Part shown: positions 14,336 through 34,671 of the stretch, in pieces
Position numbering within the stretch: position 1 is the stretch's first letter
Layout of the letters: each line of letters opens with the position of its first letter
NCBI GenBank assembly: GCA_944323115.1
Contig: CALURG010000002.1
Span: 1-64,000, forward strand
Reading direction: 5' to 3'
Length of the DNA: 64,000 nucleotides
DNA from: Candidatus Gastranaerophilales bacterium
Lineage (GTDB): Bacteria; Cyanobacteriota; Vampirovibrionia; Gastranaerophilales; Gastranaerophilaceae
The notes under the pieces: generated by a model
Databases searched by the model: none
What the model was told of the DNA's origin: nothing
What the model saw: the letters and a program-made list of their open reading frames with translations, nothing else
Made by a program: the position numbers and the translations under genes

Positions 14336-14525
14336 AATCAAATCCTTCATAAATTTTTAATACTATAATTATAATTTATGAAAACTTATTCTCAAGGAAT
14401 TTTAATTATTTCTTAATTATTTATTTCTTCCGTTCTCTTTATTTTTTGACGTTTTATAGAAATTAATGTTTCTAATGTTAAGAAATGTAATGAAAAATAA
14501 TAAAATTGAAATTCAAGTTTTGAAA

Positions 14526-14555
14526 TTGTTTTTATATATGTACGAGGTATATAAA
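14526..14555 (+). promoter_or_regulatory. Putative promoter of the ETAG-repeat peptide gene
   Basis: TTGTTT (14526-14531) and TATAAA (14550-14555) are separated by 18 bp. A TATATATGTA box (14533-14542) lies between them, similar to boxes upstream of several other lineage-specific genes. The start codon is 40 bp beyond the -10. Assignment is by pattern only. Confidence 0.4.
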
Positions 14556-14594
14556 AGATATTTACAGAGTAGATAAGTATATGAAGGAGTAATT

Positions 14595-14759
14595 ATGAAC
14601 GTATCAGCAATCGGAAATTTATTTACAGCTCAAGTTGAAACAGCAGGAACTCTGGCAAGCAGACCGGTAGAAACAGCAGGTGCATTGGCATTTGGCGGTG
14701 CAGAAACAGCAGGTTCTCTTGCAAATAATTCTGGCGGTTCATTCTGTGCAATGGCTTAA
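14595..14759 (+). CDS. 54-aa ETAG-repeat peptide
   Basis: This short gene encodes 54 residues and starts at an ATG with an excellent Shine-Dalgarno (GAAGGAG, 5 nt spacing). The peptide contains three imperfect 11-residue repeats: VETAGTLASRP, VETAGALAFGG and AETAGSLANNS, followed by a Gly/Ser/Cys tail (GGSFCAMA). There is no signal peptide and few charges except one Glu per repeat. I do not recognise a family. It is divergent from grpE and followed 75 bp later by a 47-aa membrane peptide. A peptide precursor, a self-assembling small protein or a secretion substrate are all possible. The RBS, repeat structure and promoter argue that it is real. Confidence 0.7.
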   Translation: MNVSAIGNLFTAQVETAGTLASRPVETAGALAFGGAETAGSLANNSGGSFCAMA

Positions 14760-14834
14760 TCGGCAAAGTTTTTATTAAAGAGAAAAGTATAGAAAAAGTA
14801 TCTGTGACGGCGGACTACTAAAATCGGGGTGGAA

Positions 14835-14978
14835 ATGACAGAAATTAAAATTGCAAATTATACATTAACAACTGTTTTATTGCTTGTAATGATTTCATTT
14901 TGTATTTCATTATGCAACCTAAACGAAACCAAGATCAACAACTCGCATTCTACATTTCTGGCAGGATATATTAAATAG
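14835..14978 (+). CDS. 47-aa single-pass membrane peptide
   Basis: This small frame (47 aa) starts at an ATG with GGGGTGG just upstream. The sequence has a short polar start, one hydrophobic segment (about residues 9-29, TLTTVLLLVMISFCISL) and a polar tail with Asn, Lys and Ser. It lies between the ETAG-repeat gene and a strong bidirectional terminator, so it would be the second gene of a two-gene transcript. No family was recognised. A membrane partner or immunity-like function for the ETAG peptide is speculation. Confidence 0.5.
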   Translation: MTEIKIANYTLTTVLLLVMISFCISLCNLNETKINNSHSTFLAGYIK

Positions 14979-14990
14979 ATTCATTATTAA

Positions 14991-15021
14991 AAAAAGCACT
15001 GTATTTTATACAGTGCTTTTT
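14991..15021. terminator. Bidirectional Rho-independent terminator
   Basis: AAAAAGCACTGTA (14991-15003) pairs with TACAGTGCTTTTT (15009-15021), a perfect 13-bp stem. The A run on one side and the T run on the other let it work for the small plus-strand genes and for the convergent zinc-ribbon gene that ends at 15030. Confidence 0.88.
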
Positions 15022-15493: not shown

Positions 15494-16039
15494 TTATGCA
15501 TATTTAGGTGCTGCGTTTTTAATACCTTCTTCTTCAGCCTTTTCAGCAGATTTAAGTTCTTCTTGTGCAGCTTGAAGTTGAGTTGTAAGCATTTTTTCTT
15601 GCATTTCAATTTCTGTTTCAAGTTTCTTGATTTTAGCAGCTTCAGCTTTTCCTGCAGCATCGAGTGCTTGTTTAAAGAATGCATTGAATACGAAGAACTG
15701 GTTAGCATAGACAGAGTTAGGGTTAGAAGGATCAACAGCCATACCGTATTGACCGTTAGAAGCCATATTCATATTCGCAATATTCATATTGTAAACTTGT
15801 GAAGCTCTTGATGCCTCGAAAAGTGCTTTCGGAACACTGTTATTGAAGAAGTTCAAATTTACTCCGAAAATACTTGCCGGCGAGTTCATAAATTCACCAG
15901 GTGAAATAATTCCATCAGCTACATTGCCTGCATAAACAGCTAGGTCCATTTTTCTTTGAGACAACTGCATCAATCTGTATTGTATTTGATTGATACGTTG
16001 GGTCAATTGTAGCTTTCGCATTGTGAAAATTGCGTACAC
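15494..16039 (-). CDS. Unknown Ala/Met-rich helical protein with GTG start
   Basis: This 181-aa protein begins with GTG; GGAG lies 9 nt upstream, so the GTG is better supported than the ATG seven codons further in. The N-terminal ~45 residues form a helix rich in Q, R and L (RKLQLTQRINQIQYRLMQLS). The middle is rich in N, M, A and S (SQVYNMNIANMNMASNGQYG). The C-terminal 60 residues are a likely coiled coil (AAKIKKLETEIEMQEKMLTT). There is no signal peptide. The N-terminal helix plus coiled-coil end resembles secreted flagellar-type or injected substrates, but I cannot place it in a family. Confidence 0.75.
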   Translation of the reverse strand: MYAIFTMRKLQLTQRINQIQYRLMQLSQRKMDLAVYAGNVADGIISPGEFMNSPASIFGVNLNFFNNSVPKALFEASRASQVYNMNIANMNMASNGQYGMAVDPSNPNSVYANQFFVFNAFFKQALDAAGKAEAAKIKKLETEIEMQEKMLTTQLQAAQEELKSAEKAEEEGIKNAAPKYA

Positions 16040-18732: not shown

Positions 18733-20193
18733 TTATGATGAACTACCTACATTTACACCGATAGAGGCAAGTTGCTGTTGCATCAGTGAGAATTGGTTGT
18801 TCAAATCGGCAATAACTTGGTCCATATATTGGAATTGTTTTGTCAATTTTGCTTCATATGATTCTATATATTCCTGCTTGTCTGCTATTTTTTCATTCAT
18901 CCTGCTGATTTCTTCATTCAAAGAATCGGCTCTTGTTGTAAAATAGCCGCCTGTAGAAGACAATGCCGGTTTTAACGATGTTTTTACAACCTGCATTACA
19001 CCGTCACATTCCATGCCGGATGTATTGTCACCGACAAGAAGAGCTTTAACGGATGAAGGATCTTTTTCAAATGCTTGAATAAATTTTTCCTCATCAATAA
19101 CGAGCTGATTTGTATTGGCATCTACACTGGTACCTATTGCACCTGTTGTGATACCGATATCGGCAAGAGAACGATAAATGCCGTTAGTTTCAACAGTTGA
19201 TGTAACTTTTGATCTTAAGTCATTTCTGATGTTTATCAATGAGCTTTCGCCTGTGAATGCACCGCCGTTTTCGGCATCTGTACCGGCATCTGTATCAGCA
19301 ATAACTTTATTGAATGCAGCTACAAACTCTTGAAGAGCAGTAAGAACTGTTTCAGAATCCGGTTCACTGTCGATTATAATTTCAACAGGTATATCTACAC
19401 CTGAATCAGGGTCTTTGTCCGTAGTTGTTAAAATATCTATTGAAAGGCCCAAAATACCTGTGTCGTCACTTGTTAATGTATTTGAATCAGCATACCTTGT
19501 CGGCCCGCCGTCAATTCTAAAAGCGGCTCTTTCACCCATTTCAAAATTTGAACTTTTGTTGAATCCGAGAAGTTCTGCAAATGTGTGGGTTCCGTCTACA
19601 GTCTGGTCACCTGTAATTTCAATATCTTTTTGTCCGTATTCTTTGCTTTCAAGAACAATCTGTCCGTTTTGCAAATAAGCTTTTACACCTGCTGTAGATG
19701 AGTTATTTATTTTATAAATTAAAGTATCAACAGTGTTGTTTGGGTCTACACTAATTGTTGCACCGTTAATTTCAAATGTTGCATTTTGTGTAATTCCCAG
19801 TTCTGACAATTTTGTTGATGAATTTCTCAACAAATCATTTGTATCAGACTTTCTTACAGATTGAGTTGCAAGACTGTCAATTGCCAGTTCAAACTTGGAA
19901 GGTGTTGCGTATTGAGTTACCGTTGCTGTAACAATACTTGTTTCGGATGTGGATACGGATACTTTTGAAAATATATCCATGCCTGCACCGAGAAGTGAAT
20001 CTGTCAACTTGGTTGCGGTTGATTCCAAAGAACTGTATTCAGATTTCAGGGTATTAAGTGCTTGTTGTTTTTTGGTAAGCACTTCTTTTTCTTTTTCAAG
20101 AGTTTCAACCTTAGCCTCTTCTACGCCGACAAAAGCTTTTATCCATTCATCGATTGGTAATCCTGAACCTAGACCTGAAAATGATATTGACAT
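18733..20193 (-). CDS. fliD: Flagellar filament cap protein FliD (normal size)
   Basis: FliD (HAP2) forms the cap at the filament tip that folds incoming flagellin. The 486 residues show the N-terminal FliD domain (SISFSGLGSGLPIDEWIKAF, then a coiled coil to about 75), a central region with flagellin-IN-like motifs (about 130-190, DTLIYKINNSSTAGVKAYLQ) and the FliD C-terminal domain with its final coiled coil (RADSLNEEISRMNEKIADKQ). It lies 120 bp downstream of the giant fliD-like gene on the same strand. A good Shine-Dalgarno (AGAGGTG) precedes the start. It is probably the structural cap. No sigma-28-type promoter was recognised. Confidence 0.93.
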   Translation of the reverse strand: MSISFSGLGSGLPIDEWIKAFVGVEEAKVETLEKEKEVLTKKQQALNTLKSEYSSLESTATKLTDSLLGAGMDIFSKVSVSTSETSIVTATVTQYATPSKFELAIDSLATQSVRKSDTNDLLRNSSTKLSELGITQNATFEINGATISVDPNNTVDTLIYKINNSSTAGVKAYLQNGQIVLESKEYGQKDIEITGDQTVDGTHTFAELLGFNKSSNFEMGERAAFRIDGGPTRYADSNTLTSDDTGILGLSIDILTTTDKDPDSGVDIPVEIIIDSEPDSETVLTALQEFVAAFNKVIADTDAGTDAENGGAFTGESSLINIRNDLRSKVTSTVETNGIYRSLADIGITTGAIGTSVDANTNQLVIDEEKFIQAFEKDPSSVKALLVGDNTSGMECDGVMQVVKTSLKPALSSTGGYFTTRADSLNEEISRMNEKIADKQEYIESYEAKLTKQFQYMDQVIADLNNQFSLMQQQLASIGVNVGSSS

Positions 20194-20313: not shown

Positions 20314-23300
20314 TTACTGAACGATGGGATTGAAACCCGGATTGTTTTGATTAAGTATCAATCTTGTTACAGATGTTGCATATTGACTGTTTAGATTTGC
20401 AATGGCTTCATTGATAAATCTGTATTGTTCTTCTAGTTTTGCCAGATATTCGCTCAAACCGTCTGTTGCCGGAGTGCCTGACACAGCGAGCCTCAATTCA
20501 TTCAATTCAAATGTCGTACGGGTAATTTCACGTTTAAGTTCTTTTTGAACGGCGGAAAGTACTCTAGGTGTACTGTTGAAGTATCCGTTGTTGTTGTTTA
20601 CTTCCGGATAGAGTACATTGTTGAGTCTTGTTAATACACCGTCTTCTACACCGACAACAGTTTCTTTACCGATTAAAAGATCCATGACATGCTGTGAGTC
20701 AGCATAGAATGCATCAGTATATTTCTGTTTGTCGAGATAGATTCTGACAGTACCCATATTTGAGTTTTCGCCGCCTTTGATATCGACTGTAATACCGATA
20801 TCTGCAAGCTGCTGCTGAATTTTTCTCATATCTGCAACATCATCCGTGAGTGCTGCTTTTACATTATTAATTATTTTTGCAAAATCAGCATCATCGGACA
20901 AAATGGCATTTTCTGAAGAAATCATTGCTTTGTTGAAGTTGGCAACAAATTTATTCAATTCAACCAAGCTTGCGTCAAGCAAGTTTTGACCTATCTTGAT
21001 AGTTGTTTCACCTGTTTTCTTGATTTCAATAGTAATTGCTGCCTGGTTTTCATTTGCAACTACTTTGCCGTTTTTATCAAGGTAAATCAAGTTGTTGCCG
21101 TTGTAGATGTTGTCATTTGTAATATCTTTTAAATCGAGAGCTATATCGTAATCAGTTCCTACTGTATCATTTCCGATTTTGATATTAAAGTTAGCATTCT
21201 GACCCATATCAACTACATTGTTTCTTGATGAGTAATCAGTGAAGCCTACGACTTCCGTAAAGTTTGTGGAGCCGGCTTCGATTTCGATTCTTGCATTTGA
21301 AGAAGCATTTTTTGTTGTCAAAACAATCTGGTTGTTTTTAAACTCTGCTGTAACTGCAATGTCATCATATATCGCACTGTTGAATACGGAATTTATTCTT
21401 CCTATGACATCTTCAATTGTATCGGTTTCTTTGATAGTAATATCAACACCGTTAATCCTGAAAGTACCGCCGTTGATACCCATAGAAGCCATAGTTGCTT
21501 TGCTTGAAACGGAAAGTTTGTCACTTGTCAAAACTGTGTGAGATGCAGCGACACCTGACTCATGCGTACCGTTGTATACACCGCCTGTAGTGAAACCAAG
21601 TACAGTAGTAAAATCAGATGAACCTTTGCTTATTGAAATGCTTCCTTCACCGGTGTCAGCATCTTTTGTAAGCACCAGCTTGTTGTTTGAGTTTAATGAA
21701 GCTGTAACACCTGTGTTTGCTGCATTTATTTTGTCTATAACATCGTATATAGAATCAGTGGATTCGATATCAATAGTGTAATCTTTGACTGTTCCGTTGT
21801 CTTCAACTGAAATTATGAAATCACCTTCGGTAAATCGTTTTGATGTGCTGACAGAGTTTGGAGCAACAATAGATGTTTGAGAACCGTATTGAGTTGTTGC
21901 AGACTGATATCCGCCGGATGTAAAGCCGATTTTGTTTGTAAAATCGGATGAACCTTTGGTTACAAGCACACCGCCGGCTGTTTCAGAAGAATTTCTTGTG
22001 ATAACCATCTTACCGGAATCATTAATTGAAGCAGTTACGCCGAGACCGGAGTTGTTGATTTTTTCTATAATAGAATCAATTTTTTCATTTTTGCCGATGG
22101 TGATTTTGACCGTGTCGGTAATATTTCCGTTGGTATCAGTAAGGTGTACAAAGAAATCACCTGCTGAAATACCGGAGTTTTGAGCGGATTGGGCAGTGTT
22201 TGCTGAGGTGTAAGTGGATAATACACCTTTGTCTACACCGACGAGCTGTATTCCTCCGCCGTTTATAAATCCTGCAATTTCTGCAAAGTTGCTTGTTCCG
22301 TCTTTAAGTGAGATATCGACAGCACCCGGATTTTGGGCAGTAAGAACAAGTTTTCCGTCTTGTATGCTTGCACTGACACCAAGACCTGATGCATTTATTT
22401 TATTTATTACAGATGTAAGTGATTCTCCTTCAAGTACATCGAAATTAACGGTGTTTCCGTCGACAGTGATTGAGAAATCTCCGGCAGAGAAGCTTACATT
22501 ACCTGTTATATTGTTTGTACCGGTGAGCGTGCTGTATTCGTCTGCGGTACCGGTAGTGCTTGAGATTTCATCTTCACCGAGCACTTCTTCTTGTGCAAGT
22601 CCGAGATATTTGTCAAGGCCGCTTGTGCCGCCAAATTCCATGTCCATAATGCCGCCTTGAACTGTAGTTACGACAAATCGTCCGTTTTCATCAAAACTTG
22701 CAATGTAGTCGCCATCCGCATTTATTGCCTCTATCAAATCACCCAGAGTCATTCCTTGAGTGATATTTACGCTGACTTCTATACCGTTGCCGGAAGATAT
22801 CGTAAATGTCTTGCCCGAGCCTGCATATTGAGGCGGAATTTCTGTTTTGTACAGAGAATTTCCGGCTGCCGGTCTTGTGTGGTTGTCGAATATACTGTTG
22901 TAATCGAGTTTGGGCGTAGTGCCTGAGATATTCCAGATGTTTTGATTCCAGCTCGAGAATACACTGTTGTTTCCATTGTATGTTTTGACTGTGTCTGTAT
23001 CAATTATTGCATAGTTTTCATATGATACGGAACTTGGGAAAGTTGATGTTATTCCTGACGAACTGCTGTAGTATATATCAGAAATAAATGCATATCCATA
23101 AGTATTTTCACCTATGCCGCCGATTAAGGCTTCGGAGAATTGGCCATCGTAGAATATATGATCAATGTGTCCGCCGGAAATTGCACCAACTAAAGCACCT
23201 GAGGCGACAGCTCCACTTGTAATATTGCTGTTTACATATACATTGGATATTTCAGATTCATAAACGGCACCAGCAATATTTCCAGAAACATAACCTATAC

Positions 23301-26300
23301 TAATATTCATATCGCTATTTGTTATTATTGAATTTGTTATTTTAACGGAAGTTCCAAAACCAATAATGACACCTGCTCCAGCAACACCATTATTGCTACC
23401 GATTGTGACATTCTCAACATTTACTTTGTTTATTATTGTGCCATCTCCTGCACTTCCTGCGATTGCTCCAACGAAGGTAGCGTCAGCTTGCATTGTTGAG
23501 TTTACAATGGTGACATCTTCAATTATGCTGCCGCTTCCGGCGTTTCCAGTCAATATACCGACATAGTTATCAGTACCAGTCTCTGATGCTGTAACACTGG
23601 CATTTTCAATTTTGACATTTTTGATTGTTGCACCTGAAATATTTCCGAATAATCCGACACCAGAATCGATAGTTGTTTCATTTATTGTCAGATTTGATAT
23701 AGTGAATCCATTACCGTTGAGTTCACCCGTGAACGGATTATCTTTGCTTCCGCCAATAGCTGTCCAATCGACACCGGATAGGTCGATGTTGTTCATCAAT
23801 ATATATTTTCCGGAGAGATTGTTGTTTATGTTCTGCAAATCAGCAGATGTTTTAATAACAGTGTATCCGAGTGCAATTGCTTCTTCTTCCGTGAGTTTGT
23901 ATATAGGATCAAGATCTGTCGGATCATATCCTTTGACGCCTTGTGTTTTTTCATAGTTTTCTTTTGTTGTTCCAGAGAAAGCAAGGAGTTCCGGTTTTCC
24001 ATTTTCAAATGTCCATATAGATGAGCTCCATCCCGTAAAGTTTGATGCATCACCTGCTTGTGATGTTGTCAGACCTTTGACGTTTGTACCTGTTTGACCG
24101 GCACTTGTTTTGCCTGAAATTTGAGTATTCCAATAGCTATTCCTTATTGTAGAGCCTGTTCTAAATGAACCGACAAGACCATTACCTACGTTTGTAAATG
24201 TTGTTTCTGCATACGAATATTCAATGGTACCGTTGTTGGAATTTTCACTGCTGACACCGTTATATCCGGCAATACCACCTACAGACCCTTGTCCGCTTAG
24301 CTTACCTTTAGCAAATGCATTGGATATTATACCGCCTGCGTTGTTGAAGCCGACAATTCCGCCGACACCTGTTCCGCCATCCGCAGTACCTGTGACGTCA
24401 GTATCTGAGTATGCATATTTTATAGTACCTGAGTTTCCTCCAGATACACCGCCGTCATTGTTGTATCCTTGTACAGTACCTTCAACGTATATGTATTCAG
24501 CTTTTCCGCCGCTGCCGACTGCACCGAATGCACCGCCTGTCTGTGTCCAGCCTGTTACGTTAACACCTGTAACTTTTATGTTGTAGGCATTGCCATACAA
24601 GGTACCTGCAACTACACCTGTATTGTTGCCGCCTTTTACTGTAGCACCTTCTATTGTCAGGTTCTTTATCATAGAACCGTTTTCTGTTCTTGCGAACAAA
24701 CCTACAGTGGAATTTGCCTCTTGGTCGTTTACGGTTTTGCTTATTTTGAGGTTTTTGATTGTGTATCCGTTACCGTCTAAAGTTCCTTTGAATCCTGAAG
24801 TTCTGCTGCCGATAGGTGTCCATGTCGTGCCTGACAGGTCTATATCTGCCATCAATATGTATTTGCCCCTCAGATTGTTTTTAATATTTTTCAAATCTGA
24901 AACAGAATCAATGATTGTGTATCCTTGAGCTTCTGCTTCTTCTCTTGTTAGAGGTGTGAACAGAGGTGCTGTTGCTTTGTATTCTTTGAGGCCGGTGATT
25001 TTGCCAAAGTTCCCTGTTGCATCTGATATAACGAGATCTGAATATATTGGCTCTGCGGTGCCGCTGACTCTGGACATAACGAATTTTCCGTCAATGATTT
25101 CAGCAAAAATTCCGGATTCTGCTGTTTTTTGGTTGATTAAATCAACCAGATCATTGATTGTTGCATCGCTTGATGTAGTGGAAACAGTAAATTCATTACC
25201 TATTTTTCCGAATTTTATTGTTGTTTCACCGACAATAGTGTCTCCGGTCAGTGTGTTTCCGCCTTTTAGTATAGTCGGAGCATCAGAAGTACCGCCGCCT
25301 CCTTGTTCGTTTTTGGTTGCAGTGCCCGTGATTTCAACAAAGTTGCTGGAACCGGCACCTATTCTCAATGTTTCCGTGCTGCCGCTTAAATATTCAAATA
25401 CAACTCTGCCTTGACTGTTTATAGAGGCAACAACACCGGTGTGGGCGGATTCGTTATTTATCTGTTCAATTACATCGTTAATATAACCGCCTTCTAAGTA
25501 TATTGTCTGGTCATTTATAACTATAGTACCGCTGCTGATTTTTGTTGCACCGACATCTCTGTTTAAAACAGGCATGCCGTTTGATGTAGTTGTTGAAAAA
25601 TCCCATGCTGATTGATCCCATCCGGCAAAGATAGATTTGAGATCATTTGATGACAGCATAGACTGTGTTAAATGCGTAATACCTGTTACATCTGTAGTTG
25701 TAACACTTCCAACAGCTTTGTCGCTTGAACTATTTTGATAATAGTAGTTACCAACATATCTACCTGCTAGGTCGCTAAAACCGATGAAACTTCCTTTGTA
25801 GGTTTTAGCTGATGTTGATGTATTAGAGCTATTTAACGTTATACTACCATTATTGGTATAGTTGTTATAGTAATAACCGCCATAGTCATATCCTGCAAGA
25901 CCTCCAGCATACGTGGTTTTTGTTGCAGTATTCATGGTTATTTTTCCATCAGCATAGTTGTTTACGACCCTTGCACCGGAGTTTCCTCCAACCAATCCAC
26001 CTATAGAGGATAAGGATGTCGCTCCATTTATTTCTGTATAATTTATATTTACTGATGCTGATGACTGTTGGATACCTGAAGCATTTGTTGTTGAACTGAT
26101 GCTACCTACCAACCCTCCGGCAAACATATTGCCTGACAGTTCCATATTGCCGCTTGCTGCGACATTTCTGATAACAAAACTGCCGCCTTCTTCATCAGCT
26201 AGTGCACTACCTGCGAGGACACCAACTGACGATGGTATTGTTTGGTTTCCGTTTACCGTAACGCTTGCGTTTTCAAATGTGATATCAGTAACCAGAGATC

Positions 26301-29300
26301 CATCTCCGAGTTTTGAGAAGAAACCGATATAGCTGTTGTCAGTACTTGTAACAGTTTTGTTTATAGTCAGATTTTCGATTGCAAATCCGTTACCGTTCAA
26401 TTCTCCTGTAAATTCACCGAGCGGATTCCAATCTATACCGGACAAATCAATGTCGTTCATTAATATATATTTGCCGGAAAGATTGTTTGCAATATTTTGC
26501 AAATCCTGCGCTGTTTTTAAGACAGTATATCCTTCAGCAATAGCTTCTTCTTCTGTTAATTTGCTTGTCAATACAGGACTTGAGCCTATTTGTTGTCCGG
26601 AATTTGAGAAAATGTCTGACGCAACTGTCGGTTTGATGCCTGTTACTTTGAGAATGTTGCTGGAGCCTCTTTGAATTTCGATACTTGTTGAGCTGCCATC
26701 AGCATTTTGCAGCATAAATTTGTTTTCGCTGTTCAAAGAAGCTACTACACCGGTAGTTGATGATTCTGCGTTTATCTGATCAATGACATCTTCTATCGAG
26801 CCTCCGGAAATGCTGATGTTGTGTCCGTTTATTATTATGCTTCCTGCCGAGACTTGGGTTCCTTCGTTTGTAACTTTTGTCGGGTCTGTGTATCCGACAT
26901 CTTTTAAAGTCGGAAGTGTACCTGTTGTATCCCAGTATTCCGGATTTTCAGGATTGAATTCTGAAATGTCTTTGAATGTTACAGGTCCATAATTGCTTCC
27001 TACTGCATTAAGACCGCTGTTCAGTGAAGAATCCCAGTATCCGCTTGTTTCATCACCATTGTCATTACGGTTTATGCCGATTACTGCACCCATATAACTT
27101 CCAGATGATGATATAGCTATTGAGGATGTAGTATAAATATTATTTACATCTGTAGAATCTGCATTTTCTCCAATGAAACCGCCTACTATTGAATCGGAAT
27201 TTAAGTATCCTATCGTATTTGATGCAGCATAAGAGTGGGAGATATCACCGGCGTTGTAACCGATAAATCCTCCTACAGCTGCACCTGCTTCGGTAAATAG
27301 TGAAATAACAGTTGAATTTGCGGAATATGAACGTGTGATTGTATCTCCACTTTCAATTTGGCCTATAAATCCACCTACTGTTGTCAAGCCCATTACAGAA
27401 ACATTGTTTGTATTTGAATTTGATATTACGGAAGAACCTGTTGAACTGTCTGTATCTACTGTTGATATACCTACAAGGCCGCCTGCGATATCTGCACTGA
27501 CTGTTGTATTTTGTACGGAACTGTTTGTTATTGTGGAATCAATTATTGCTGCAGCAATACCTCCTGCTGCATGTCCAATTGCATCACCTCCAGATACGTA
27601 TGAATTGTCAACCAAAACATTTGAAATCTCGGTATTTTTTGCAAGTCCGACAAGAGCACCGCCTGATCCAGAAAAATATAGAGTTGCATTGTCTATTTTT
27701 ACATTTTTAAATACGGCACCGTCCGATTCTCTGAACAAGCCGACAGCTTTGCCGCCTTCTGTTGTTTCGCTTCCTGCGGCTTTGTTGTCACTGGTACCAA
27801 TGCTTAATCCTGATATTGTATAGCCGTTGCCGTTGAATTCACCTGTAAAGACTCCGTTAATCAGCGAGTCGGAAAGTGTACCAAGTGAGCTCAAATCAAT
27901 ATCATTCATCAAAATATATTTGCCAGAAAGATTGTTCTGGATGTTTTGCAAGTCACTTACTGATTCAATCAAAGTGTAGCCTTGAGCAAGTGCTTCACTT
28001 TCTGTAATCATAGTGTTTTCACCTATGAGAATACCATTATTTGAGCCAGAAGCCGGCAAGTTTGCTTCTGTTTTTATTGTCATACCGCCTGTTTCTTCTG
28101 TCCAGGCATTGGATAGGGAAATTTGAGACAGTCCGTAGAAGCTGTCAAAATCACCTGTGGATCTGACTGTGATATCTGATACATTTGAAGCACCTTCTAC
28201 AACAAGCTTGCCGTCTTTTACAGACAAAGTGACGGCTCCGTTGGCAGCTGCATTGATTTTTTCTATTGCGGTAGTGAGTGATTCACCGCTGTTTATTGTG
28301 ACTTCAAAGCTTGATTCGACACCGTTTCTATTGAATGAAATTTTTACTGTTTCTGTTTCCGATGCGTTTTGTGAGATGTAGCCTGAGTTTAACATAGATT
28401 CAGTGACAGTCGTACCGCCTCTCAAAGCTTCGGAGGCAGAAATAACCACAGTACCGGGACTGAATACAGGATAAATACTTATCGGGCAGGCTTGAGTAGC
28501 TCCACTTGCAATATACCATTCACCTGTTTCAAGTAAACTTGCAAAACTTTCTTGCGGGTTTGCCTGCAATTCAGTTATTGTTTTTAATACAAAATTTGTA
28601 AATGTACTGGAATTGAGATCATTTCCGGTGGGATCTGTCAAGTTATAAGTGGTTGTAGTGGTTGATGTTGTAAGTCCGATTATCACATTGTCCGCTGTCG
28701 AGTTTGATGATTGCCCGAATATTGCACCTTTGTATCTTACATAACTGGGATTTATTGTACCGTCTTCTGCTATAGGGTTGAAAGATCCTGCTACTAAAGA
28801 ATCAGTAACTGTTGTATTGATGCCGAATCCTACTATGCCTCCTGCAATTTCACCGGTAAGTCTTGTAGCGTAAGACATTACATTATCAACAACAGCTTCG
28901 CTTCCGTCTGTGCCGCCTAAAATACCTCCAACACAAGAAGATGGCGTGTTTGCGTTTACTAAAATTGTTGTAGATGTTGAAACGACATTTGATATTGTTA
29001 GCTGCGGACCGCTGGTATCAGGTGAAGAAACCACGAGACCGACCAATCCGCCGACATAAACATTGTCAGTGTCAGTTAAACTTATTGATGTTTGCGATGT
29101 GATTACATTGTCAATAACAGTTCCCCCCATTGCTATACCTGCTATGGCACCTGCTGCACTATTTACTGAGCCTGTAATTCTTGTATTGGACATATAGAGA
29201 TTTTTGACTGTTGCTCCGTCAAGTGCAGCAAACAAGCCGGAGGCATCGTATGAACCGGAACTTCTAAGTCCTACTATTCTATGTCCGTTACCGTTCAATT

Positions 29301-32300
29301 CTCCGGTAAAAGCATTGTATGTAGAGCCTATTCTTGCCCAAGATTGACCTGAGAGATTTATGTCGGCCATAAGTATATACTTGCCGTCCATATCGTTTTT
29401 GATATTTTTAAGATCATTGGCTGTTTTTATGACAGTGTAGCCTTGAGCAATTGCTTCTGCCTCTGTCAGTACACCTGTTTCAGGAGCAGCAGTTGTTTGT
29501 GACACTGTAGAAGTGTTTGATGTGTAGTCGCCAAGACCGATAACTCTGGCAAAATCGCCTTCGGCTGTGACTTCAAATTTTGAGCCCATTTCTGTAGAAG
29601 CAGTGTGTTCGAGTTTCAGGGTATGGTAGTCTCTGCCTTCTTCGTCAACCGCAGCAACGAGTGAGGCTGTGACGCCGATACCGCTTGTGTTGATTTCGTT
29701 GACAATCTGCTGTAGAGTTTTGCCTTCAGCGTTGAATTTTGTATCTTTAATGGTAATGCTGCCGGATGTGAAGGTGTTTGACTCGTTTTCTGCATAATCG
29801 TAAACACGCAGATTGGACTGGATAGTCGTTGTAAATTCCGGAGCTTCGCCTTCAAACTCTGTTGAACCTGTGACCTGGAGCTTGCTATCTGTTCCCATGA
29901 CAATAGTCCAGTTTCCGGAAGTTGTACCTGTAGCGGTAGAACTACCTGATCCTTTTGATACCTGCCACAACAAGACAGGTTCTTCACCATCACCTTTATA
30001 CCATATAGTATCATCAAATTCAGTCGGTAAAGAACTTGAATAAGCAAGGCTACTGGAGGTAGTGTTTGCAGCTACAGATTCTATTTCGGGTATAGCATCA
30101 TAGCTGCCGTTGTTTACGTATTTGCCTTGAATTGAATCGATATTTTTGTCAATAGTATATGCAAATTGATTATAATTACTGTTTGTATCACCACTGTACG
30201 CAGTATTGCTATATCCATTATAAATACGTGTTCCTGAATCTATATATGATATAAATCCGCCAACATCTTGTAGCTCTTTTGCACTTATGTTGCCATCAAC
30301 GTAGCAGTTATTTATGTTTGTATCTTCTGCACTTGCTATAAACCCTCCAATATCCCCGCTATTATATTCATATATGTTATTACTGTTGATTGTTCCTTGA
30401 TAGAATGATTTGCTAATTGTTGAGTGTGAAGCTGTACGTACAAAACCGCCTGCATTCCTAAAACCTGATAATGTACCTGTTGCATAAGAATTTGATATAC
30501 TTCCACTAGTAGAAATACTATCCACCAATCCACCAGCACTAGTATTTGCTCCCGAACTAGTTGTAATAGCAGTTATGTTTACTGAAGACCAGCAAGAATC
30601 TATTTCTGTGTCAGTACCTTCATGTATTAATCCGCCAGCACTGTATGCAGTAATGTTACCAGTAGTATAACAATTGGTTATTTTGGCATGATCCATACTT
30701 GTTGCCAAAACGCCTGCATCACCATCGATAGTAATATTTGCATCTGTTATACCCAGATTTCGAATTTCTGCTTTAGCATTAGTTTCGCTATATCCAGATG
30801 TGCTAAACAAGGCATTGTTTATATTTTTTATTTCATATCCGTTTCCATCAAAAATGCCTATAAAATCTTCAATAGTTACCCAATCATAACCTGACAAATC
30901 AATATCATTCATAAGAATGTATTTTCCTGTTATGGACAGACAAGGTATAACTTCTGAATCTTTATTTTCTCTTATTCTATCTAAATCATCTGCTGTTTTT
31001 ATTATTGTATAGCCTTGTGCAATAGCTTCTTCTTCTGTCAGTCTGGTTACGGCATTTATAAAAGTACCCGTTTGAGCAGGTCCAATACTGTTTGTTTTGT
31101 TCTGAAATTCTGATTCTGATGCAAACTCATCTATACTTATGTCAACTGGATTACCCACAGCATTTTCTTGCTGAGTTTTATCCGTTATGTTTATTATGTT
31201 GTTATATGAGTTAATACCGCTTTCATTATACGTATAGCCGACAAAAGCACCTGTATATGAACTTCCTGTGACTTTTCCTGCTGCAATACTTTCATCAAAG
31301 TGATTCATTTTAGTATTGCCAACAAATCCGCCTACATAGTAATTGCCTGTGACATTTACTTCTGAACGGATATTTTCAAATAATGATCTTTTTGATGAAC
31401 CTATTATGCCGCCAATAGAATTTTGACCATTAACATTTCCGGAAAAATAAGAATTAGTAATTTCGCTCCAGCTGTCAGATTCTTCATCTCTGCCGGCAAG
31501 GACACCGACATTGTTTCCACCTGTAATGTTTGCGTTTTCTATGCCTAAATTTTTTATTGTTGCTTTGTTTAATTTTGAAAACAGGCCAACGTAATCTTCA
31601 TCAGGTGTATTAATAGTCAAATTTTTGATTGAATATCCGTTACCATCTAAAGTACCTTTAAATTCGCCAAGAGGTGTCCAATCTACTCCGGATAGGTTGA
31701 TATCATTCATGAGAATGTATTTTCCGGATAGATTATCATTTATTTTTTGCAAGTCACTTACACTCTCAATAACAGTGTAGCCTGCATTAATTGCTTCATC
31801 TTTAGTCATACGGATATATTCCGGTGCATCAATAGGTGTAGTTGTATCGGATGTACCTATCTGGGCTGTTGTTGTGTCTCCGCCAATCACTGTTGAAAAG
31901 TTACCTGATTCCGATGTAAAGTTTATTGCTTTTGCACCTGTCTGGGTATTTGCCAGCACAAATTTTCCGTCGCTGTTCAGGTAGGCTTCTACGCCTGTGA
32001 AGCTTGAATATCCGTTTATTGTGTTCATTGCAGAACCCAACGTTCCGGAAAGCTGCATTTTTTGTCCGTTTATATAAATAACTGAACTTTCAATTGCAGT
32101 GCTTGTTGACAGGCCGGTTTTTGATGCGGTCATTGTTGTTTTTGTACCGCCCAGAATTTCTCTTATTCCGCCTTCTGTCTGGAATGCGGCCGTACCGGTA
32201 ACTTGTGTAAAGTTTGATGAGCCGGCTTCAATATTTATTGAGTGTGAACCGGTTTTTGTATTTGTAAATACAAGTTTACCGTCTTTTATTGCAGCTGTTA

Positions 32301-34671
32301 CGCCTGTTTCTGCACTATATTCATTGATTTTGTTTACTGCTTCGGAGAGTGTTCCGTCTTCCAGTGTAATCTGGTAGCCGTTTATTTTGATTGTACCGCC
32401 TGTGATTGCGTCTCCTGCCGAAACATTGTACGCACCGGTCAATGTCGATTTGTCGCCGACTTTTCCCACTGTCGCCGTTGCTGCACTTTGTGCTTTTGAA
32501 ATAAATCCAGCAACCGATGCAAAATCTGATGTACCGGATTCTATATATATTGTGTAATCTGGGCCGGTTTTGTTTGCCTGTAAAACAACATTTCCGTCTT
32601 TCAGGTATGCGTTTACGCCTGTCTGGTCTGTATATGAGTTTATTTTTTGTATAGCGGAATTTATGTTTCCTGCGTCAATCTGAATGGTTACGCCGTTAAT
32701 CATAAACGAGCCGGCACTCACTGCTGTGCTTCCGCTTACGTTTGTTGAGCCTGTCATAGAAGTGAACTGATTTACGTCAGAACCAGGAGAAAGCACGCCT
32801 GTGTTCATTACATTTGATGTAAGGCCTGCTTTTTCAGTAAAGTTGGTTGCACCTGCCTGTATTGTTATATCAAAATCAGCACCTGCGTTATTTTGTTCAA
32901 TTTTAAAATAGCCGTCAGCTGTAATACTTGCAGTCAGTCCTATACCTGCATCTGTAATCTTTTGTGCGATACTTTCTTTTGTATCGCTTGCTGTTACGTC
33001 AATTGTTGCCGAAATTGTTTCAAACAGTGCTGTTTTTCCGTCGTCTGATACTTTATTTGTTGAAATTGTGAACGAGCCTTCAGTGAATCCGCTGTTTGGC
33101 ACTACAGTTGTTCCGAGCAAGTATGAATTTTCTGCATCTTTTGATGTGGTGTTGCTTACGTTCGATGTCATTCCGACGTAATTTGTAAAGTTTGATGAGC
33201 CTGCTTCAACTGAAATATCAAACTCTGCACCTTTTTGTGTTTGTCTGATAACCAGATGGCCATTTACAATTTCTGCTGTAAGGCCTGTTTGGACTGTATT
33301 GCCTTCTTCATCAATATAAGAACCTTTTGTCTGGTTTTTGATTTTTTCGATGATTGAATTTACCGTATCTGAGCTTGTGACTTCAATAGTTACGGTTTGC
33401 ATTTCGTGAGAGACATTGCCGTGTTCATCGATTTTGTTAAATGAAATATTGAAGTTTCCTGCTGTGAATTTGCCTGAGGATACAGAATCGGTACCTTTTA
33501 CAGAACCGTTTTGGCCCGTAAGTGTTACGTATGAGCCGTCAGAACCCATTACAAGATTCGAGGTGTTCATTACACCGCCTACCGTAAAGCCTATGGCATT
33601 TGTGAAGTTTGATGTACCTTTTTCAACTAGTATATCAACTTCTCCGGTTTGTGATGCAACAAATACAAGTTTTCCGTCCTCAAGTTTTGCGCCCACATTG
33701 TCTGCTGAGGCGGAGTTTATATCCGCCATCAGTGAGCCGATTGTTGTAGTGTCCGTGATTTCAAATGATGCACCGTTTATATAGAAGTTTCCTTCTGTAA
33801 CGGTCAATCCCATCAATGAGGTAAAGTTTGATGTTTGTGATGTAATAGCAATTGATTTTCCTGCATCTCCCGAAATAACAAGTCTGCCGACTGCTTCTCC
33901 GTTGCTGTCATATTCCGCAGTTTCGATAGATGCGTTGTATCCTGCATTTTTGATTTTTTGTATCAATGTACCGATTGTATCATTTTCGGCATCTACTGTG
34001 ATTGTTGCTGAGCCAAGATTGAATGAGCCGCTTGTTACACCCAATTCGGAAAGTTTCAGGCTCTCTTTTATATCCTGGCGGTTTGTTTTGATTGCATTAT
34101 TTGCAACGTCGTATATGCCTGCAAACAGGTCTGTGACTTTTGTATTCTTTGTTACATTGCCGCCTACCAGCACTTCACTTTTCAGTACTGATGTCGTTGC
34201 TATCTGCGTAACATCAAGTGTTATTTCCTGAATGTTTGTGTTTTTGTCGTTTACTGTAACATTGACCTTGTCATTGGATGTGCCTTTGTTTCCGTCAAGG
34301 TAGATGTCCGGATCTTTGTTTGCGGAATTCGGGTTCTTTAGGCTTTCTATGTATTTGTCCAGTGATGAAACTGTGCTGCTGTAGCTTTTTTTAAGGCTGT
34401 TTATTGTAGTGATTTTGTTTGCGTTGAAAGCGTACTGTTCATTCAGTCTGTCAATTGTATCTTGAAGACTGGCAATTTGTGAGCTGTAAGAGCTGTTTAT
34501 TGAACCTGTGTTGAGCATTCCTCCCTGTAAAGCCGCAAGTGTATTTTCGATAGAAGATTTTTGCTCCAAAAGAGTATTCAAAGATTGTGTCCTTTTGGAC
34601 ACCAGCTGCGAAATTAATGCACTTACAGAGGTATTTGTAGAACCTCCGAGATTTCCTATTGAAATGTTCAT
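20314..34671 (-). CDS. Giant FliD-like protein with flagellin-IN and GLUG modules
   Basis: One uninterrupted frame of 4,785 codons encodes a protein of roughly 0.5 MDa. The N-terminus (1 to about 165) is FliD-like: SIGNLGGSTNTSVSALISQL, then a coiled coil and a T-rich strand region. Then come many repeats ending in GTSNFT-x-x-x-GF that match the flagellin-IN motif; seven or so lie between about 200 and 960. Seven GLUG blocks, with their linker YILMNDIDLSG centred near residues 985, 1252, 1765, 2253, 2735, 3272 and 3624, alternate with further IN units. More IN units lie at about 3945-4480. The C-terminus (about 4487-4785) is FliD_C-like with a final coiled coil (LAKLEEQYRFINEAIANLNS). No Sec signal is present, consistent with flagellar type III export. 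The Shine-Dalgarno is weak. It is the upstream neighbour of fliD. Confidence 0.93.
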   Translation of the reverse strand: MNISIGNLGGSTNTSVSALISQLVSKRTQSLNTLLEQKSSIENTLAALQGGMLNTGSINSSYSSQIASLQDTIDRLNEQYAFNANKITTINSLKKSYSSTVSSLDKYIESLKNPNSANKDPDIYLDGNKGTSNDKVNVTVNDKNTNIQEITLDVTQIATTSVLKSEVLVGGNVTKNTKVTDLFAGIYDVANNAIKTNRQDIKESLKLSELGVTSGSFNLGSATITVDAENDTIGTLIQKIKNAGYNASIETAEYDSNGEAVGRLVISGDAGKSIAITSQTSNFTSLMGLTVTEGNFYINGASFEITDTTTIGSLMADINSASADNVGAKLEDGKLVFVASQTGEVDILVEKGTSNFTNAIGFTVGGVMNTSNLVMGSDGSYVTLTGQNGSVKGTDSVSSGKFTAGNFNISFNKIDEHGNVSHEMQTVTIEVTSSDTVNSIIEKIKNQTKGSYIDEEGNTVQTGLTAEIVNGHLVIRQTQKGAEFDISVEAGSSNFTNYVGMTSNVSNTTSKDAENSYLLGTTVVPNSGFTEGSFTISTNKVSDDGKTALFETISATIDVTASDTKESIAQKITDAGIGLTASITADGYFKIEQNNAGADFDITIQAGATNFTEKAGLTSNVMNTGVLSPGSDVNQFTSMTGSTNVSGSTAVSAGSFMINGVTIQIDAGNINSAIQKINSYTDQTGVNAYLKDGNVVLQANKTGPDYTIYIESGTSDFASVAGFISKAQSAATATVGKVGDKSTLTGAYNVSAGDAITGGTIKINGYQITLEDGTLSEAVNKINEYSAETGVTAAIKDGKLVFTNTKTGSHSINIEAGSSNFTQVTGTAAFQTEGGIREILGGTKTTMTASKTGLSTSTAIESSVIYINGQKMQLSGTLGSAMNTINGYSSFTGVEAYLNSDGKFVLANTQTGAKAINFTSESGNFSTVIGGDTTTAQIGTSDTTTPIDAPEYIRMTKDEAINAGYTVIESVSDLQKINDNLSGKYILMNDINLSGVDWTPLGEFKGTLDGNGYSIKNLTINTPDEDYVGLFSKLNKATIKNLGIENANITGGNNVGVLAGRDEESDSWSEITNSYFSGNVNGQNSIGGIIGSSKRSLFENIRSEVNVTGNYYVGGFVGNTKMNHFDESIAAGKVTGSSYTGAFVGYTYNESGINSYNNIINITDKTQQENAVGNPVDISIDEFASESEFQNKTNSIGPAQTGTFINAVTRLTEEEAIAQGYTIIKTADDLDRIRENKDSEVIPCLSITGKYILMNDIDLSGYDWVTIEDFIGIFDGNGYEIKNINNALFSTSGYSETNAKAEIRNLGITDANITIDGDAGVLATSMDHAKITNCYTTGNITAYSAGGLIHEGTDTEIDSCWSSVNITAITTSSGANTSAGGLVDSISTSGSISNSYATGTLSGFRNAGGFVRTASHSTISKSFYQGTINSNNIYEYNSGDIGGFIASAEDTNINNCYVDGNISAKELQDVGGFISYIDSGTRIYNGYSNTAYSGDTNSNYNQFAYTIDKNIDSIQGKYVNNGSYDAIPEIESVAANTTSSSLAYSSSLPTEFDDTIWYKGDGEEPVLLWQVSKGSGSSTATGTTSGNWTIVMGTDSKLQVTGSTEFEGEAPEFTTTIQSNLRVYDYAENESNTFTSGSITIKDTKFNAEGKTLQQIVNEINTSGIGVTASLVAAVDEEGRDYHTLKLEHTASTEMGSKFEVTAEGDFARVIGLGDYTSNTSTVSQTTAAPETGVLTEAEAIAQGYTVIKTANDLKNIKNDMDGKYILMADINLSGQSWARIGSTYNAFTGELNGNGHRIVGLRSSGSYDASGLFAALDGATVKNLYMSNTRITGSVNSAAGAIAGIAMGGTVIDNVITSQTSISLTDTDNVYVGGLVGLVVSSPDTSGPQLTISNVVSTSTTILVNANTPSSCVGGILGGTDGSEAVVDNVMSYATRLTGEIAGGIVGFGINTTVTDSLVAGSFNPIAEDGTINPSYVRYKGAIFGQSSNSTADNVIIGLTTSTTTTTYNLTDPTGNDLNSSTFTNFVLKTITELQANPQESFASLLETGEWYIASGATQACPISIYPVFSPGTVVISASEALRGGTTVTESMLNSGYISQNASETETVKISFNRNGVESSFEVTINSGESLTTAIEKINAAANGAVTLSVKDGKLVVEGASNVSDITVRSTGDFDSFYGLSQISLSNAWTEETGGMTIKTEANLPASGSNNGILIGENTMITESEALAQGYTLIESVSDLQNIQNNLSGKYILMNDIDLSSLGTLSDSLINGVFTGEFNGNGYTISGLSIGTSDNKAAGSETTEGGKAVGLFRESDGAVFKNVKIDNATLYFSGSGGALVGLAKNTEISNVLVDNSYVSGGDAIGHAAGGIAAAIIDSTITNSSVQNTTVSADIAGGLVGISTVDTDSSTGSSVISNSNTNNVSVMGLTTVGGFIGQIESGDTITRSYSANSTVISLFTEAGAAVGGFIGYNAGDISHSYAASNTIGYLNSDSIVGGFIGENADSTDVNNIYTTSSIAISSSGSYMGAVIGINRNDNGDETSGYWDSSLNSGLNAVGSNYGPVTFKDISEFNPENPEYWDTTGTLPTLKDVGYTDPTKVTNEGTQVSAGSIIINGHNISISGGSIEDVIDQINAESSTTGVVASLNSENKFMLQNADGSSTSIEIQRGSSNILKVTGIKPTVASDIFSNSGQQIGSSPVLTSKLTEEEAIAEGYTVLKTAQDLQNIANNLSGKYILMNDIDLSGIDWNPLGEFTGELNGNGFAIENLTINKTVTSTDNSYIGFFSKLGDGSLVTDITFENASVTVNGNQTIPSSVGVLAGSALADEEGGSFVIRNVAASGNMELSGNMFAGGLVGSISSTTNASGIQQSSASVNINYTEINGATSLSSIGGLVGGNSGARVVNNYADGKITMNTATKTTYAGGLAGYDYGGYYYNNYTNNGSITLNSSNTSTSAKTYKGSFIGFSDLAGRYVGNYYYQNSSSDKAVGSVTTTDVTGITHLTQSMLSSNDLKSIFAGWDQSAWDFSTTTSNGMPVLNRDVGATKISSGTIVINDQTIYLEGGYINDVIEQINNESAHTGVVASINSQGRVVFEYLSGSTETLRIGAGSSNFVEITGTATKNEQGGGGTSDAPTILKGGNTLTGDTIVGETTIKFGKIGNEFTVSTTSSDATINDLVDLINQKTAESGIFAEIIDGKFVMSRVSGTAEPIYSDLVISDATGNFGKITGLKEYKATAPLFTPLTREEAEAQGYTIIDSVSDLKNIKNNLRGKYILMADIDLSGTTWTPIGSRTSGFKGTLDGNGYTIKNLKISKTVNDQEANSTVGLFARTENGSMIKNLTIEGATVKGGNNTGVVAGTLYGNAYNIKVTGVNVTGWTQTGGAFGAVGSGGKAEYIYVEGTVQGYNNDGGVSGGNSGTIKYAYSDTDVTGTADGGTGVGGIVGFNNAGGIISNAFAKGKLSGQGSVGGIAGYNGVSSENSNNGTIEYSYAETTFTNVGNGLVGSFRTGSTIRNSYWNTQISGKTSAGQTGTNVKGLTTSQAGDASNFTGWSSSIWTFENGKPELLAFSGTTKENYEKTQGVKGYDPTDLDPIYKLTEEEAIALGYTVIKTSADLQNINNNLSGKYILMNNIDLSGVDWTAIGGSKDNPFTGELNGNGFTISNLTINETTIDSGVGLFGNISGATIKNVKIENASVTASETGTDNYVGILTGNAGSGSIIEDVTIVNSTMQADATFVGAIAGSAGDGTIINKVNVENVTIGSNNGVAGAGVIIGFGTSVKITNSIITNSDMNISIGYVSGNIAGAVYESEISNVYVNSNITSGAVASGALVGAISGGHIDHIFYDGQFSEALIGGIGENTYGYAFISDIYYSSSSGITSTFPSSVSYENYAIIDTDTVKTYNGNNSVFSSWNQNIWNISGTTPKLDYNSIFDNHTRPAAGNSLYKTEIPPQYAGSGKTFTISSGNGIEVSVNITQGMTLGDLIEAINADGDYIASFDENGRFVVTTVQGGIMDMEFGGTSGLDKYLGLAQEEVLGEDEISSTTGTADEYSTLTGTNNITGNVSFSAGDFSITVDGNTVNFDVLEGESLTSVINKINASGLGVSASIQDGKLVLTAQNPGAVDISLKDGTSNFAEIAGFINGGGIQLVGVDKGVLSTYTSANTAQSAQNSGISAGDFFVHLTDTNGNITDTVKITIGKNEKIDSIIEKINNSGLGVTASINDSGKMVITRNSSETAGGVLVTKGSSDFTNKIGFTSGGYQSATTQYGSQTSIVAPNSVSTSKRFTEGDFIISVEDNGTVKDYTIDIESTDSIYDVIDKINAANTGVTASLNSNNKLVLTKDADTGEGSISISKGSSDFTTVLGFTTGGVYNGTHESGVAASHTVLTSDKLSVSSKATMASMGINGGTFRINGVDITIKETDTIEDVIGRINSVFNSAIYDDIAVTAEFKNNQIVLTTKNASSNARIEIEAGSTNFTEVVGFTDYSSRNNVVDMGQNANFNIKIGNDTVGTDYDIALDLKDITNDNIYNGNNLIYLDKNGKVVANENQAAITIEIKKTGETTIKIGQNLLDASLVELNKFVANFNKAMISSENAILSDDADFAKIINNVKAALTDDVADMRKIQQQLADIGITVDIKGGENSNMGTVRIYLDKQKYTDAFYADSQHVMDLLIGKETVVGVEDGVLTRLNNVLYPEVNNNNGYFNSTPRVLSAVQKELKREITRTTFELNELRLAVSGTPATDGLSEYLAKLEEQYRFINEAIANLNSQYATSVTRLILNQNNPGFNPIVQ
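22870..31810 (-). repeat. Seven GLUG-repeat blocks within the giant FliD-like gene
   Basis: Each block opens with almost the same linker, for example LTEEEAIAQGYTVIKT, then DLQNIxNNLSGKYILMNDIDLSG, then a G-x-L-N/D-G-N-G-Y/F stretch. A run of GLUG-type units follows (for instance VGLFSKLNKATIKNLGIENA and GGNNVGVLAG). Between blocks are flagellin-IN-like modules such as AGSIIINGHNISISGG with a GSSN-containing end. GLUG units are known from bacterial surface adhesins and IgA-type peptidases and are predicted to form beta-solenoids. The regular alternation points to duplication of a combined unit. Confidence 0.85.

Follow-up and report, generated by a model that had tools for sequence, protein, structure and literature searches.

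A two-gene operon for an ETAG-motif peptide and a predicted bitopic membrane peptide in Gastranaerophilales

The gene pair and its signals

The 64,000-nt stretch of DNA from a Candidatus Gastranaerophilales bacterium that we analyzed (the window) carries two small neighboring genes, ORF1 and ORF2, together with a set of regulatory elements that lie on the same strand and are laid out as follows.

14476 to 14496, + strand: upstream box TGTTAAGAAATGTAATGAAAA, with half-sites TGTTAAGAAA and TGTAATGAAA 10 bp apart, near-invariant in 20 aligned loci of the genus
14529 to 14550, + strand: putative core promoter or transcript start element TTTTTATATATGTACGAGGTAT, nearly invariant in the genus and recurring in genomes
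14584 to 14589, + strand: ribosome binding site AAGGAG, of which AGGAG is kept in all aligned relatives
14595 to 14759, + strand: ORF1, the ETAG-motif peptide of 54 aa, supported by conservation, family matches, and purifying selection
14637 to 14657, + strand: ETAG copy 1, ETAGTLA, residues 15 to 21, read from the sequence and replaced in part of the genus
14670 to 14690, + strand: ETAG copy 2, ETAGALA, residues 26 to 32, with ETAG invariant in an 11-row genus alignment
14703 to 14723, + strand: ETAG copy 3, ETAGSLA, residues 37 to 43, in which E37, T38, A39, and G40 are the only invariant columns of a 16-sequence family alignment
14733 to 14756, + strand: C-terminal tail GGSFCAMA, family motif [FL][SCN]x[VMI][AC] from a 66-member comparison
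14813 to 14832, + strand: intercistronic element GACTACT...CGGGGTGG, conserved in the DNA alignment and including the likely ribosome binding site of ORF2
14835 to 14978, + strand: ORF2, a bitopic membrane peptide of 47 aa by its predicted helix, N-in/C-out with a short conserved C-terminal end, following ORF1 at the loci of the genus
14991 to 15021, + strand: Rho-independent terminator closing the two-gene unit (-16.9 kcal/mol, z = -7.3)

AAGGAG ends 5 nt before the ATG of ORF1. We place the start of ORF2 at the ATG at 14835 rather than at the GTG at 14829, since the GTG is missing from several relatives that retain CGGGG(T/C)GG followed by the ATG. A structured RNA in the intercistronic element was rejected (fold z = 0.36), and a search of Rfam returned no antisense RNA family, with one sub-threshold chance match elsewhere. 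The DNA alignment places a hairpin at the terminator site in relatives as well, with changed sequence.

ORF1 and ORF2 form a genuine, co-directional two-gene operon that has a promoter and a terminator of its own. Of 23 genomes of the same genus, 20 carry ORF1 and the other three are 80 to 86% complete; in every one of the 20 carriers, ORF2 lies about 40 to 75 nt downstream of ORF1. Both frames are under purifying selection, with pN below pS in 276/276 sequence pairs for ORF1 (median dN/dS of 0.23) and in 271/276 for ORF2 (median of 0.36), in sets made up of same-genus sequences plus a few from other genera. An earlier, sequence-only reading of this DNA had proposed a tiny gene pair here, with a ribosome binding site, an upstream promoter-like region, and a strong terminator. 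The pair is real and the three signals lie where it placed them; the reading had also held that the pair would fall if the frame were not conserved in relatives, and it survived that check. ORF1 shows less synonymous divergence than ORF2, a difference that may reflect a codon preference such as that of highly expressed genes.

A search of six genomes of the genus for the TGTTAAGAAATGTAATGAAAA pattern found it at this locus in each, against no match for the reversed control. Its half-site layout resembles, as a likeness only, that of operators of the OmpR/PhoB family, among them the RpaB site HLR1 of cyanobacteria. Relatives of TTTTTATATATGTACGAGGTAT at ≤3 mismatches number 1 to 5 per genome, against three reversed-control matches in total over 10 genomes, and precede genes for a ribbon-helix-helix (RHH) protein, ribonucleotide reductase, MotA, valyl-tRNA synthetase, and lineage-specific coiled-coil proteins, names that are readings of the translations, with only the RHH protein tested in Pfam. 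A relaxed form of the element precedes 37 of 65 family members (see below) and occurs in 26 of 1,300 control windows (2%). As judged from these patterns, the gene pair sits behind a promoter class that is common to housekeeping-like operons.

We note a lineage promoter class of the form TTTATATAnRTACGAGRDAT with an upstream TGTTAAG-type box (G000:C33, C46, and C86; relatives L187 to L216), which housekeeping genes, motility genes, and genes specific to the lineage have in common. The window also encodes, at 15494 to 16039 on the - strand, a member of a lineage-specific coiled-coil family with the start M(G)YAIFT.RKL.LT.R; others are at L069, L082, L083, L096, L100, and L105. Some copies lie behind the same promoter class, and the window copy has no Pfam family above cutoff.

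An order-wide family in two forms

The ORF1 protein, MNVSAIGNLFTAQVETAGTLASRPVETAGALAFGGAETAGSLANNSGGSFCAMA, carries ETAG at residues 15, 26, and 37; none of 200,000 composition-preserving shuffles of it contained three copies. Across 163 copies in the family, the consensus is the 7-mer E[TS]AG[ST][LIV]A: A7 is present in 162 and position 2 is T or S in 161, while S or T is usual at position 5 and L, V, or I at position 6, with E1 and G4 constant since they define the pattern. The spacing between copies ranges from 8 to 54 residues over 66 members, with a mode of 11, so the repeat unit is the 7-residue motif and not an 11-residue repeat. Of the three 11-residue repeats described in the sequence-only reading, then, the three copies and their spacing of 11 hold for ORF1, but the period is a local one. 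Linkers vary in length and sequence while the motif stays constant, a conservation pattern that is as expected for what would be a short linear motif rather than a periodic fold, and AlphaFold2 gave no confident structure for ORF1 (pLDDT of 51.5). The C-terminal end is also recognizable, with F or L at residue -5 in 54 of the 66 members, S, C, or N at residue -4 in 56, and A or C as the last residue in 60.

We built a family profile from 16 members and searched it against 286 Gastranaerophilales genomes; 75 of them matched, representing 20 of 50 genera in four families. The bare 7-mer was then searched for genome by genome as a DNA pattern, with a reversed-pattern control. It matched 0 to 7 times per genome and was almost confined to this gene; the control gave 0 matches in all but one genome. 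The pattern also found the motif in most of the genera that the profile missed, where it lies in one or two copies in a homologue of 112 to 130 aa that also has a segment resembling SSNPFAVDYSQY and a Gly/Ser/Cys tail, often behind the same promoter element as ORF1. The search for ETAG across Gastranaerophilales-like genomes and for copies with variable repeat number, both suggested by the sequence-only reading, thus bore fruit: a member is present in 32 of the 34 genomes of the order that were tested (a count that includes G057, G039, and G065, seen by protein), with none found in G028 and G030, and motif number varies from 1 to 7. A single-sequence query of 17 genomes from other orders of the class found no member, and a single-protein scan returned close relatives only; the relatives found are metagenome assembled. 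A predicted membrane protein with no other resemblance to the family (L156, G200:C5) has a lone ETAGSLAN at its N terminus.

Members fall into a short and a long form. The 44 short members are 52 to 107 aa long, mostly have 2 or 3 motifs, often lack Cys, and, apart from a few, end in [FL][SCN]x[VMI]A. An N-in/C-out membrane peptide of 46 to 50 aa follows 38 of them. The 21 long members (112 to 173 aa, 1 to 7 motifs) have a Gly/Ser/Cys tail whose last residue is mostly C, and the membrane partner is found with 0 of the 21; other ORFs downstream of long forms were judged to be chance frames, and the member set is 65 to 66. ORF1 is thus the short form of an order-wide small-protein family not described before, and the membrane peptide accompanies the short form only. 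Six short members, three of them from one genus, have no recognizable partner, and ORF2 is therefore dispensable in some lineages.

The partner peptides share one predicted transmembrane helix, and Lys and Arg lie mainly on its N-terminal side (0.15 per residue before the helix versus 0.04 after it, n = 29). In ORF2 itself, AlphaFold2 predicts a helix over residues 2 to 38, with block pLDDT values of 86 to 96 over residues 1 to 20, giving a confident predicted N-terminal and transmembrane helix. With a single such helix and a positive-inside N terminus, ORF2 has the predicted features of a bitopic membrane peptide. The C-terminal end of the partners is kept across genera, for example, as ISAFNA or LSGYNK.

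Neighboring genes and known families

Genes that recur beside the family encode a treble-clef zinc protein (PF13451), GrpE-DnaJ, GroESL, and a PDZ-less trypsin-like protease, mostly in convergent or divergent orientation, and GIY-YIG genes adjoin most long single-motif forms; these neighborhoods look like inherited synteny more than operons. In three families, the protease gene (PF13365) and the ETAG gene keep a convergent arrangement (L066, L068, L072, L073, L077, L137, and L148). Elsewhere in the window, a 4,785-aa ORF (20314 to 34671, - strand) has, by eye, a FliD-cap-like start and end with long repeat-rich insertions and adjoins an ordinary FliD gene (18733 to 20193; Pfam FliD_N and FliD_C).

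Searches of Pfam, NCBIfam, PHROGs, PADLOC, and PDB gave no match to the family, and the motif string is absent from the open literature searched. Viral contigs and plasmids contained no relatives, and phage proteins gave one low-identity match, to a long form; with no convincing match, a phage, viral-contig, or plasmid origin was rejected.

Proteins built on 11-residue amphipathic repeats are known from group 3 LEA proteins and the alpha-synuclein type. The window's copy has the same spacing locally, but the 66 members have no constant 11-residue period (spacing 8 to 54), linkers contain Gly and Pro, and no helix is confidently predicted, and we rejected this class. MelA, the precursor of a ribosomally synthesized and modified peptide (RiPP) of the MNIO class, comes from a Melainabacteria genome (PMC12636315). 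The ETAG family shares with it the broad lineage and a Gly/Cys-containing C-terminal end, but MelA-type precursors exceed 30 kDa, carry TPR repeats, and end in CPACGMG (PMC12636315), whereas ETAG proteins of 52 to 173 aa lack CPACGMG and are set apart by this description.

Candidate functions of the ETAG peptide and its partner

The Gly/Ser/Cys tails of the long forms, which by eye resemble azole-type cores, raise the question of a RiPP precursor with an unlinked maturase, in which ETAG would supply recognition or core units and the tail would be the modified core. Linear azol(in)e precursors such as microcin B17 are likewise short with a Gly/Ser/Cys-rich C-terminal tail, and variation in motif number is seen in multicore precursors. 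The cyclodehydratase YcaO (PF02624), however, occurs in 1 of 35 genomes and is missing from the window's genome, which is 93% complete, and the short-form tail (GGSFCAMA or GGSFSAMA) holds at most one Cys. A YcaO-class precursor is ruled out by the absence of YcaO from 34 of the 35 genomes, and SPASM-class maturation is not required, since the window's genome (G000), G021, G022, and G054 all carry the pair and have no SPASM radical-SAM protein. The RiPP-like precursor and partner idea of the sequence-only reading is therefore not supported for these two classes. Its remark that no modification or export gene is adjacent extends to the genera examined, where no maturase or transporter is consistently adjacent, and the loci read have no adjacent MNIO, lanthipeptide synthetase, ATP-grasp, or non-SPASM radical-SAM gene. 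We regard a RiPP precursor as unlikely. Export to the surface or medium, a reading that we hold to be doubtful but rather better than unlikely, would take ORF1 and the longer forms out of the cell independently of a Sec signal, for instance by way of a flagellar or type III gate, with ORF2 assisting at the membrane. Both forms are rich in Ser, Asn, Gly, and Ala, with few charged residues at the N terminus and, by inspection, no signal peptide. At least one FHIPEP export-gate protein is present in all 286 genomes of the order, and a gate that is present everywhere offers no contrast for this reading. The profile-detectable ETAG form is found in about 60 of 115 genomes with a high-scoring FlhA-like FHIPEP and in 15 of 171 without one (hand count). 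Shared ancestry confounds this association, and clear multi-motif members are also kept in several genera that lack the high-scoring form. When 354 N termini were ranked, the window's FliD proteins were not among the best matches, and an N-terminal export signal common to ORF1 and the FliD-like proteins (MNISIGNL and MNVSAIGNL by eye) was not supported. A lower-scoring FHIPEP form (about 730 bits) is present even in genomes that lack the FlhA-like form (about 870 bits), and a non-flagellar or reduced gate therefore seems to be kept in flagella-less lineages.

The recurrence of grpE-dnaJ, clpP, groESL, and trypsin-like protease genes as neighbors, in four families between them, could instead point to [FL][SCN]x[VMI][AC] as a protease or chaperone signal and to ORF1 as a proteostasis adaptor or substrate. 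This is quite unlikely, as these neighbors are mostly convergent or divergent and not co-transcribed, the protease has no PDZ domain, and other genera have unrelated neighbors; the 64-kb window holds no tmRNA. Phr-type precursors are secreted peptide precursors that ORF2 and its counterparts resemble in length (46 to 50 aa), N-in/C-out layout, and a C-terminal end kept across genera, so that ORF2 might be the active member, releasing an (I/V)SAF(N/D)(A/G)-type end, with ORF1 as its intracellular partner. By inspection, however, the set has no AxA-type cleavage site in common, the near-constant end does not suit a strain-specific pheromone, and no receptor gene lies nearby, which makes such a signal improbable. 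A small hydrophobic peptide beside a small soluble one also recalls type I or II toxin-antitoxin systems with ORF2 as the membrane toxin, as the sequence-only reading had suggested. The pair is mostly single copy and order-wide, has a conserved, housekeeping-like promoter, keeps its synteny inside genera, and has neither a viral, plasmid, or PADLOC relative nor an antisense RNA family, and we give this idea hardly any credence.

We hypothesize that the short-form operon encodes a docking peptide, ORF1, that acts with its membrane partner, ORF2, an explanation that we consider the best at hand, with a probability of roughly 0.35. ORF1 would be an abundant, intrinsically disordered peptide in which every E[TS]AG[ST][LIV]A copy serves as a short linear motif that one conserved protein of the order recognizes. 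ORF2, in the cytoplasmic membrane with its N terminus inside, may be the membrane subunit that localizes or stabilizes ORF1 and may fill the role in the short form that the Gly/Ser/Cys tail has in the long form. Additional motif copies could tune avidity, which is our proposal for why motif number varies; many long members have a single motif, and multivalency is therefore not essential. In favor of this docking model are the conservation, adjacency, and purifying selection of the pair, the near-confinement of the motif to one gene family, the constant motif between variable linkers, the lack of a confident structure for ORF1, the confidently predicted transmembrane helix of ORF2, the restriction of the partner to the short form, and the promoter class. 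Peptide processing at the motif, or export, would predict the same conservation pattern, and the link between ORF1 and ORF2 is their operon structure and co-occurrence, nothing beyond.

Gastranaerophilales, relatives of cyanobacteria that do not photosynthesize, are common in the gut. The presence of the family in 32 of 34 genomes, together with its absence from family libraries and the open literature searched, makes the family a strong candidate for a function that defines the lineage. The family is new in the sense that its sequences have no detectable relative, a term that does not cover mechanism. E[TS]AG[ST][LIV]A may, tentatively, be the docking code of an order-specific cellular machine, carried by a near-universal family that in its short form has a bitopic partner, and the ETAG motif is a clear handle for naming the binding partner.
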